Shown: positions 21,606 to 23,982 of the stretch, piece by piece | Numbering within the stretch: the first letter of the stretch is position 1 | Layout of the letters: each line of letters begins with the position of its first letter | Assembly (NCBI GenBank): GCA_022572725.1 | Contig: JACZVJ010000022.1 | Coordinates: 1-34,048 of the forward strand | Reading direction: 5' to 3' | From: Nitrospinota bacterium | Lineage (GTDB): Bacteria; Nitrospirota; Nitrospiria; Nitrospirales; UBA8639 | Length of the DNA: 34,048 nucleotides | Notes under the pieces: model-generated | What the model was told of the DNA's origin: nothing | Seen by the model: only the letters and a program-made list of their open reading frames with translations | Databases searched by the model: none | Program-made: the position numbers and the translations under genes

Positions 21606-22511
21606 TCAGGCTTGCACCCCCGGCGGGTCTCCAGAACTGACACGCACTAGGTAAGCGAGCCTTCCAGAAGTTCCACCGAGTCCCATCTTGGCCTTAACCG
21701 CAGCTTCTTCATGACGAAAGACCCCGAAGACCGTCGCACCGCTTCCAGAAACCAAAGCGCCTTCGGCTCCCGCCTTCAACAACCCTGATTTCACTTGGGA
21801 CAAAACAGGATACAAGGGTAGGAGAACCGACTCAAAATCATTCTCCATGAGCGGGATGATATCCTCCCACGACAAGGGCAAGGAGGGATCAATTCCACTG
21901 AGGCACCCCGGCAGAGGCTCCACAGATTTCCTGGCTCTATCCAAGTGTTGATAGGCGACTTGAGTGTCGATGGGAAACCCCGGATTCACCAACACAATCC
22001 ACCGCATGCCAGTAAGGCGGATCGGGACCACCTTTTGCCCCCACCCTTGAACGATGGCACTGGGGGGCGCAAAAAAAAATGGAATATCACTCCCCAAGGT
22101 TTGCCCGAGCGCGGCCATCTTTTCCCCTGACCATCCCAGGCCAAGAAGCCGATTGAGTCCTAACATGGTAGCCGCAGCATCGCTACTGCCACCACCCAGA
22201 CCGGCGCCAACAGGGATCTGTTTACGAAGCACGATGTCCACTCCGACTTTTGCCTCAACCTGATTCAGCATAAGCTCAGCGGCCCGGTGGACGAGATTCT
22301 CCCTGCCATCCGGCAAGCCCTGGCCTTGGCAAAGGAATGTGACCTTGTCGGAATGGGGATTCAGACGAATCTCCAATTCATCCTCGAGTTCAATGGTATG
22401 CATCAGAGACCACAAATTGTGATAGCCATTGGGGAGTCGATCCAATACTTTGAGGATCAGGTTGATCTTTGCAGGGGGTTGAAGGGAGACCATTGTGTTG
22501 CTATCTGCCAT
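21606..22511 (-). CDS. ispE: 4-diphosphocytidyl-2-C-methyl-D-erythritol kinase
   Basis: IspE is the GHMP-family kinase of the non-mevalonate isoprenoid pathway. It has PAKINLILKV with the active-site Lys near the start, and the ATP loop PVGAGLGGGSSDAA at residues 100-113. The C-terminal ALVSGSGATVFGVF motif is also present. The length of 301 is slightly above average. The ATG at 22511 is preceded by GAAGGA. Only 14 bases upstream begins the foldback element, so the native upstream region has been displaced and any promoter must lie within or beyond that element. Confidence 0.96.
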   Translation of the reverse strand: MADSNTMVSLQPPAKINLILKVLDRLPNGYHNLWSLMHTIELEDELEIRLNPHSDKVTFLCQGQGLPDGRENLVHRAAELMLNQVEAKVGVDIVLRKQIPVGAGLGGGSSDAAATMLGLNRLLGLGWSGEKMAALGQTLGSDIPFFFAPPSAIVQGWGQKVVPIRLTGMRWIVLVNPGFPIDTQVAYQHLDRARKSVEPLPGCLSGIDPSLPLSWEDIIPLMENDFESVLLPLYPVLSQVKSGLLKAGAEGALVSGSGATVFGVFRHEEAAVKAKMGLGGTSGRLAYLVRVSSGDPPGVQA

Positions 22512-22525
22512 TTGTTCCTTCGTAC

Positions 22526-22694
22526 CTAGGAGGCTGTCCCAGATTAGGTTGATCTACTACGGTTGCGCCGGATTTGGCCAGATTCTCCGATCCTTTTCGT
22601 TTAATAGATCCCACGATACGCTTCAAACGATCGAAAAATCTGCCTCAAACCGACACAACCTCGTGACGATCACTAATCTCGGACAGCCTCCTAG
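22526..22694. mobile_element. Foldback MITE-like element with terminal inverted repeats and CTAG ends
   Basis: Both ends carry CTAG (22526-22529 and 22691-22694), followed inward by matching terminal repeats. Each begins GAGGCTGTCC-N-AGATTAG and runs on to TGATC, with a 2-base insertion in the left copy. The interior also pairs: GGTTG, CGG, CAGATT and CGATC on the left match the reverse complement of the right half. The whole 161-bp body can therefore form one long imperfect hairpin. No coding capacity is present. CTAG could be a 4-bp target duplication of the YTAR type known for IS5-subgroup elements; that family assignment is inference. It sits between pilC and ispE. Confidence 0.75.
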
Positions 22695-22734
22695 CAGAAA
22701 AGGATGAATGGCATTCCAAAACTATCCTTTCCTG
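22695..22734 (-). repeat. Inverted repeat downstream of pilC, abutting the foldback element
   Basis: CAGAAAAGGAT (22695-22705) and ATCCTTTCCTG (22724-22734) form an 11-bp stem with one G-U and an 18-base loop. It starts directly after the element's right CTAG. On the minus strand it follows pilC and could act as a transcription-end or mRNA-stabilising hairpin, but no T-run follows. Before the insertion it would have lain close to the ispE ribosome-binding site. Confidence 0.5.
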
Positions 22735-22770: not shown

Positions 22771-23982
22771 TTACCCGAGAACCGACGCCATGGTAAAGAT
22801 AGGAAGATACATGGCGACCACGATAAACCCGATCCCGACTCCAAGCACGACGATGATAAGGGGTTCAATCAAAGTGGTGAGAGAAGCCACGGCCTCATTG
22901 ACTTCATGTTCGTAAAGATCTGCGATTTTCTCCAACATCGAGTCCAACGCTCCGGCTGACTCACCCACCGCGATCATGTGAGTGACCAGTGGTGGGAAAA
23001 CCCCACAGTTCGCCAGGGGCTCCGCGATCGTGTGGCCTTCACCAATGCTGATTCGCGCCTCGTTCAGCGCCTTCTCAATCACGATATGCCCCGAGGTCCT
23101 GGCCGCAATGGAAAGCCCCTCCAGAATGGGAACTCCGTTGCTTAACAACGAACTCAAGGTCCGGGTAAGCTGAACAACAGCAGACTTCCGAATAAGGTCC
23201 CCAACCAGGGGAATTTTCAAAAGCCATCGGTCCCAATACTCTCGTCCTTTCCCTGTTCCCCTGGCCCACTCTACCGCCAACCCCAACCCCCCAAGTAGGA
23301 CCAACAGGGACAAAAAATTGCCCTTGAGGAACAGGCTCACCTCAAGGACCACCATTGTCGGCCAGGGAAGTGCATTGCCAAATTCAGAGAACAGCGAGCC
23401 AAAGAGGGGGATAATCCCTATGAGCAGAAAGAGGAGCACAGCCACAGCGATCCCGAACACAACCACAGGGTAGGCCAGAGCGGACTTCACCCGTTGCTTG
23501 ATCTTCAGGTCATTCTCCAGGAGCTTGGCGAGCCTGGCCAGGACCGTATCCAACGCCCCTCCGGCTTCACCAGCCTCGACCATACTGACGTACCTATGGT
23601 CAAAAACCTTGTGATGAGACCGGAGTGACTCGGCCAACACACGGCCACCTTCCACCTGCAGACGCACGTCTTCCACCACAATGCGGAGGGTAGGATTTTC
23701 AGAATGGTTGGAAAGAATGTCCAAGCACCGGGCCAGAGGAATCCCTGCTTTAATCATCGCAGCAAATTGGAGGGTGAACACGACAAGGTCTTTCCCCTTT
23801 ACCCGGCCACCCCATGAAGAAGGAAACCACGCAACCCGGCGCCCTGGTTTTTCCCGAATGGAAGTCACCGCCACCTGTCGTTGTCGCAGAAGCCGGATGG
23901 CTTCTTGCTGATCCCTGGCGATTAACTCCCCACGCTGAATCACCCCTCGAACTGTTTTTCCCCGGTAGACGAAGACAGGCAT
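22771..23982 (-). CDS. pilC: Type IV pilus inner-membrane platform protein PilC (GspF family)
   Basis: PilC/GspF is the inner-membrane platform on which the pilus ATPases act. Two T2SSF repeats are visible, each with the LARCLDIL/PILEGLSIA type helix and the conserved G..G.L.....L pattern (EAGEAGGALDTVLARLA; GESAGALDSMLEKIA). Membrane segments lie near residues 165-195, 215-235 and at the C-terminus (LIIVVLGVGIGFIVVAMYLPIF). The length of 403 is normal. It is the third gene after pilB and pilT, 121 bases beyond pilT. A general-secretion GspF is the alternative, but the PilT neighbour favours a pilus. Confidence 0.93.
   Translation of the reverse strand: MPVFVYRGKTVRGVIQRGELIARDQQEAIRLLRQRQVAVTSIREKPGRRVAWFPSSWGGRVKGKDLVVFTLQFAAMIKAGIPLARCLDILSNHSENPTLRIVVEDVRLQVEGGRVLAESLRSHHKVFDHRYVSMVEAGEAGGALDTVLARLAKLLENDLKIKQRVKSALAYPVVVFGIAVAVLLFLLIGIIPLFGSLFSEFGNALPWPTMVVLEVSLFLKGNFLSLLVLLGGLGLAVEWARGTGKGREYWDRWLLKIPLVGDLIRKSAVVQLTRTLSSLLSNGVPILEGLSIAARTSGHIVIEKALNEARISIGEGHTIAEPLANCGVFPPLVTHMIAVGESAGALDSMLEKIADLYEHEVNEAVASLTTLIEPLIIVVLGVGIGFIVVAMYLPIFTMASVLG

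Follow-up and report, generated by a model that had tools for sequence, protein, structure and literature searches.

A likely IS1182-mobilised foldback element in the pilC-ispE gap and the conserved hairpin of its family

A foldback between pilC and ispE

What is the 169-bp foldback that lies just upstream of ispE in the window (the whole 34,048-bp stretch of DNA analysed here): a mobile element that entered the locus, or a structured RNA that belongs to it? A preliminary description, made from the sequence letters, had placed a non-coding foldback with CTAG ends at 22526-22694, beginning 14 bases from the ispE start (22511). These coordinates proved exact, and no ORF of at least 100 aa was found inside 22526-22694. 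The features of the locus are as follows.

22526..22694, no strand: whole copy of the likely MITE, including both outer CTAG 4-mers; core 22530-22690, 161 bp
22526..22529, no strand: left CTAG, presumed target site; palindromic, indistinguishable from an extension of the inverted repeat
22530..22547, plus: left terminal inverted repeat GAGGCTGTCCCAGATTAG, IS1182-type end, type P
22553..22562, plus: left subterminal box TCTACTACGG; family consensus TCTACTGCGG, conserved in both phyla and in the 189-bp group
22598..22621, minus: hairpin apex, family consensus CGTTAAATAG...ACTATTCGC; the window copy is partly decayed here
22659..22669, minus: right subterminal box, CCTCGTGACGA read on plus
22673..22690, minus: right terminal inverted repeat, CTAATCTCGGACAGCCTC read on plus
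22691..22694, no strand: right CTAG
21606..22511, minus: ispE, encoding GHMP kinase domains; lies downstream, its start codon 14 bp from the element
22771..23982, minus: pilC-like, encoding T2SSF domains; lies upstream, its stop codon 76 bp from the element

The sequence CTAGGAGGCTGTCC (22526-22539) is perfectly inverted at 22681-22694, and the element and its reverse complement are 70% identical over 169 bp (E 5e-10). The stretch 22516-22704 (189 nt) folds at -72.7 kcal/mol, compared to -42.0 ± 4.0 kcal/mol in 200 dinucleotide shuffles, none of which was as good (z -7.74). The interior alone, on the plus strand, was mildly better than mononucleotide shuffles (z -1.9). The fold of the minus strand, which is the sense strand of pilC and ispE, is much stronger than that of the plus strand (-94.0 vs -67.7 kcal/mol), and the earlier statement that the internal arms pair as well holds mainly for this strand. 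The element had no Rfam match at the gathering score (the single Rfam match of the window is a tRNA), and its matches below that level were at chance level.

We compared the ispE loci of the best 29 of 57 matching relatives. In 21/29 of these loci pilC lies just upstream of ispE, 2-154 bp away (median 34), while the gap in the window is 259 bp, or 90 bp when the element is subtracted. The remaining eight loci showed no pilC match, and in two of them (L168 and L171) there is too little upstream sequence to judge. The element was found at 0/29 of the loci. These results support an insertion between pilC and ispE, at the level of the locus and short of a base-exact empty site; an empty site with a single CTAG was not found in these relatives. 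The insertion into what was a short gap would postdate the separation of this lineage from the sampled relatives, and it would have left both coding sequences untouched. The likely ribosome-binding site of ispE, GTACGAAGGAACAA (22525-22512 on the minus strand, read by eye), lies outside the element. The preliminary suggestion that the element could donate a promoter was not borne out, as neither a promoter-like nor a terminator-like site, including a terminator-like tail, was found in it. Any RNA reading through from pilC into ispE would carry the -94 kcal/mol hairpin; the consequence of the finding for ispE itself is minor.

Dispersal of the family and its IS1182-type ends

In the own genome (3.17 Mb in 221 contigs), a DNA search matched the element at 40 places on the main strand with 86-100% identity (40 of 61 first-look candidates were scored). 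An end-pattern search gave 13 further loci, 12 of which match the element, and several of these are halves at contig ends; the genome thus holds 40 copies or more, at up to 52 places. The element is dispersed and multi-copy, about 169 bp long and without a transposase gene, as expected of a MITE. Both outer 4-mers are CTAG in 30/35 own-genome copies in which both are visible, the exceptions being L002, L022, L024, L026 and L030. The ORFs that cross copies L002, L027 and L023 resemble chance read-through, and gene disruption by these examined copies was rejected. Five contigs (C5, C78, C93, C98 and C101) begin or end 127 bases into a MITE copy, which would fit a break of the assembly graph (k = 127) at the repeat. 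At about 13960-15310 of contig C123 (L084:1960-3310), an IS630-family IS with a 361-aa DDE_3 transposase and ends TAGTGTA... lies exactly at the CTAG that ends one MITE copy, and the MITE's own CTAG seems to have been its target.

The element is also found beyond this genome. Among the relatives, own genome included, it was matched in 17/59 genomes (5/19 genera). An exact 20-base pattern hit 30 stretches in named genomes, which come from Nitrospinota and Nitrospirae MAGs, Endozoicomonas, a Nitrosomonas MAG, a Proteobacteria MAG and one Daejeonella contig; at the six loci beyond the Nitrospinota and Nitrospirae records, an inverted end was seen nearby by eye in five, and not in Daejeonella. The named relatives in this search indicate that the own phylum is Nitrospirota. 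A covariance model, built from 21 intact copies on the plus strand, matched 38/245 genomes of the own phylum (12/116 genera), 4/4 outside genomes reached via the named loci and 88/369 genomes in the class to which the Nitrosomonas MAG belongs, a class that we take to be Gammaproteobacteria in GTDB. In the gammaproteobacterial set the core measures 158-161 bp in 43/44 rows. A Pseudomonas plasmid carries a full-length copy that is 75% identical, and this was the one plasmid record matched among 72,556; 0/50,697 phage records matched, and the E. coli genomes searched gave no match. A second group of foldback MITEs, of about 189 bp, occurs in family f3 of the same order (L199-L225), where the phylum search gave as many as 9 match rows for one genome. 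It shares the ends and the boxes TCTACTGCGG and CCTCGTNACGA and has a different centre.

The ends of the element, CTAG followed by GAG[GC]CTGTCCGA, match those of intact IS1182-family ISs. In a relative (L112), an intact IS has perfect ends, CTAG followed by GAGCCTGTCCGACATT, flanking a 495-aa transposase that scores 353.9 bits against the NCBIfam IS1182 model NF033551 (cut-off 270; E 1.5e-105). CTAG and the same type of end were found in 6/7 IS1182 loci (five of them named plasmid elements, one annotated ISMno38), and the end search in the seventh, from Marinobacter, yielded none. At E 1e-60, 24/295 Nitrospirota genomes have a relative of the transposase, and 11/20 Nitrospirota IS1182 loci, counted by eye, have both ends with CTAG; L243, with the alternative end GTCGGACTT, is among these. 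The further copies, the ISs that share the terminal repeats and the relatives whose pilC-ispE gap lacks the element thus all agree with the non-autonomous MITE of the preliminary description. Taken together, these results make it very probable, as far as sequence comparison can tell, that the element belongs to a MITE family which IS1182-family DDE transposases move in trans, and that this copy was inserted in the pilC-ispE gap. The matching ends suggest that the 14-18 bp ends GAG[GC]CTGTCCGA... are what these transposases would recognise, and CTAG where they would insert; the ends would carry the transposase recognition.

No intact IS1182 gene was found in the own 221-contig assembly, neither with the PF13751 model nor with a transposase search at E 1e-60, and none in same-family genomes among the matches listed. 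The only trace in the own assembly is a decayed IS1182 end (C146), so that the own-genome copies can probably no longer move, unless assembly has dropped the partner. Copies often end at contig breaks, and the failure to find a partner may thus come from the assembly. The MITE interior was not found in the IS ends that were read, and descent of the MITE by simple deletion is therefore not supported. A 227-bp element at L113:488-714 consists of both ends of the L112 IS and is an evident internal-deletion derivative, unlike the MITE of the window.

Because CTAG is palindromic and reads the same as an extra inverted repeat, a direct target duplication is unproven. CTAG stands on both sides in 28/44 rows of the gammaproteobacterial set, in which two rows repeat a place (L295 = L248, L296 = L249) and from which 18 further loci, with ends cut off or outside the end pattern, had been set aside. 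The 16 rows that depart from CTAG/CTAG include 0 direct repeats and 6 (5 distinct) inverted 4-mers, CCAG/CTGG, seen in several genomes (L248, L251, L260, L267 and L271). This may mean that the 4-mer is part of the element itself. Very-short-patch repair on CTAGG at both ends could also yield CCAG/CTGG.

Two types of ends, P and Q, occur in the family. In 123 copies, type-P ends are present on both sides in 78 and type-Q ends on both sides in 37; 0 of the 115 copies typed at both ends are mixed, and 8 are untypable on one side. On the tree of interiors the end type changes about 7 times, compared to 31.7 times if shuffled, so that interior and end type are for the most part inherited together. 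Exchange is clearest in two Endozoicomonas copies, which have interiors 91% identical and different ends. Ends and interior are separable.

Covariation and strand preference of the hairpin

In a set of 24 copies gathered without a structural model, by BLAST and one DNA pattern, the hairpin of the window paired in 84.3% of cells, compared to 28-40% when it was slid, and both-side changes occurred in 61 cells compared to 23.5 when shuffled (0/500). In the 189-bp group 89.0% of cells pair, with 62 both-side changes compared to 24.3. The model with which the gammaproteobacterial and 189-bp copies were collected (R1) takes structure into account and is biased towards copies in which the pairs are retained; the first set has the same covariation. 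RNAalifold gave 18 pairs on that first set, which includes decayed copies, and 45 on the intact set.

Covariation was also scored in 123 distinct copies against a phylogeny-aware null, simulated by parsimony on a tree from the same alignment. The hairpin diagonal holds 13/14 of the best-scoring pairs (E up to 0.5). In the interior alone, where the pairing set was derived from folds of the same sequences, the top 10 covarying pairs are all hairpin pairs (0.07 expected), as are 15 of the top 20, and 30 simulations never placed more than one hairpin pair in the top 20. Hairpin pairs make up 7 of the top 10 in the 189-bp group. Several unpaired columns are at least 90% conserved, such as TACT at columns 30-33 and AC at 140-141. 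The preliminary description had set a MITE against a structured RNA; judging by the covariation, an element can be mobile and under structural constraint at once, so that these alternatives are not exclusive.

The minus strand (the pilC-ispE sense strand in the window copy) folds better in 122/123 copies, with a mean of -92.3 vs -73.0 kcal/mol, and in 25/25 copies of the 189-bp group. Wobble states were counted with a strand-neutral pair set, in which A-C is a wobble on the minus strand, and ranges span the tie-breaking. On internal branches, changes from Watson-Crick to A-C numbered 49-51 compared to 12-17 to G-T, and on terminal branches 82-85 compared to 42. The matching transitions at unpaired columns (17 to 30-32, in only 13 columns) showed no such excess, and mutation bias is therefore not an obvious cause of the A-C surplus. 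A model built on the plus strand would favour G-T over A-C, opposite to what was observed. The asymmetry is weak or suggestive within the Nitrospirota-side subset (63 copies) alone and within the 189-bp group alone, and a stronger bias on internal than on terminal branches was not robust to tie-breaking (p 0.04-0.33). Since the minus strand is the one that folds and the A-C excess lies on paired and not on unpaired columns, a single strand, as RNA or as single-stranded DNA, appears to be what stays folded.

We then compared the structured strand with the direction of neighbouring genes in 32 of the 40 own-genome copies, using a crude ORF list. Among the genes reading into these copies, 21 are sense and 21 antisense, that is, there is no orientation bias, and the selection is therefore probably not directed at the host. 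The own-genome insertions lie between convergent genes in 16 cases and divergent genes in 6 (p 0.05). Selection on one single strand would keep the interior of about 120 bp as a hairpin, and this selection would most likely serve the element's own spread and not the neighbouring genes.

Explanations for the hairpin and related elements

MITE interiors are usually seen as passive, drifting filler. In this family the interior can be aligned between Nitrospirota and Gammaproteobacteria, the hairpin is held by compensatory changes, wobble falls mostly on one strand, and there are two kinds of ends. Our tentative proposal, which we rate as possible but rather doubtful in its entirety, is that these are cross-phylum mobile hairpins in which selection acts on the single-stranded fold of one strand in addition to the terminal repeats, with IS1182-type transposases recognising the folded arm, and in which the interior has repeatedly swapped end pairs, always both together, in passing between transposase subtypes. 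Structure-guided movement is plausible here because IS1272 is reported to target inverted repeats or stem-loops, with no target duplication, in the part of PMC5678879 that was available; a reference quoted there places IS1272 in the IS1182 family. By this description IS1272 is a full IS with an IS1182-family transposase that replaces inverted repeats, whereas in the window family the foldback itself is the mobile unit. Should movement depend on the structure, it would become directly testable whether IS1182-type transposases are guided by structure; if the element acts as RNA, it would be an unrecognised and very widespread structured RNA.

The hairpin might also persist without selection. In quasipalindrome correction, one arm is copied from the other through a hairpin template during replication, and paired changes are expected from this mechanism alone; the concerted exchange of both ends would fit such copying too. 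This process should, however, erase conserved unpaired columns, yet TACT 30-33 and AC 140-141 are kept across phyla, and it does not predict wobble states biased to one strand, so we regard it as an unlikely source of the palindrome. A benefit to the host is less probable still. The hairpin could be an RNase III site, an mRNA stabiliser or a terminator that spreads by transposition and is kept where useful, and the preference for single-strand structure, the excess of convergent insertions and the reported cutting of Correia-containing transcripts by RNase III (PMC10969869, seen in part) are in line with this; the even 21 to 21 count of genes reading in and the want of a terminator-like tail speak against it.

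A regulatory RNA proper to the pilC-ispE operon would account for the strong sense-strand hairpin and for covariation. The preliminary description would have turned to such an RNA on finding no second copy and conservation at the locus; what was found is an element dispersed in many copies in its own genome, absent from all 29 relatives' ispE loci examined and without an Rfam match above chance, and a locus-specific RNA is refuted, with hardly any probability left to it. Scarcely more can be said for an IS630-type MITE with a TA target duplication. The CTAG sites, the TTAG or CTAA ends of a few copies and the position of the C123 IS would suit it, but that IS ends in TAGTGTA... and not in GAGGCTGTCC, and the element's ends are those carried by IS1182-family ISs. 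IS630 parentage was rejected on the ends of the C123 IS630, one of two DDE_3 matches (the other is L041).

The nearest known elements are MITEPye1 and the ISMac2-associated MITEs. MITEPye1 of Paracoccus yeei, as far as its description in PMC11578231 was available, is an intergenic element of 159 bp with no ORF, 18-bp terminal repeats similar to those of IS1182-family ISs, 4-bp flanking repeats and a long stem-loop fold, found in one species at 1-3 copies per chromosome. By description, it resembles the window family in size, kind and IS1182-type ends. The ISMac2-associated (IS1182) MITEs of Methanosarcina acetivorans are given in the accessible part of PMC3852290 as 160 and 169 bp long, in 14 and 7 copies, with inverted repeats of 25-26 bp, and compared on this description they are similar in kind, size and ends but archaeal. 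The conserved covarying interior that extends across phyla, the single-strand bias and the paired exchange of ends set the window family apart from both, as these are described in the parts seen. The Correia repeats of Neisseria, by their partial description in PMC10969869, are likewise multi-copy MITEs and possible RNase III substrates; they differ in host and in that promoters are reported for them, compared to none detected in the window element. No paper describing the window element was recognised in the partial literature listings.

Some copies of the family have themselves received DNA. About 1 kb of DNA interrupts the MITE copy at L129:2123-3319 (JADFRB010000073.1), and the beginning of this DNA is similar to a group II intron (RF02003, at 42.1 bits short of the gathering score of 49). 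Extra DNA of about 100-200 bp lies within the element copies L049, L054 and L050 (genomes G018, G021 and G014).
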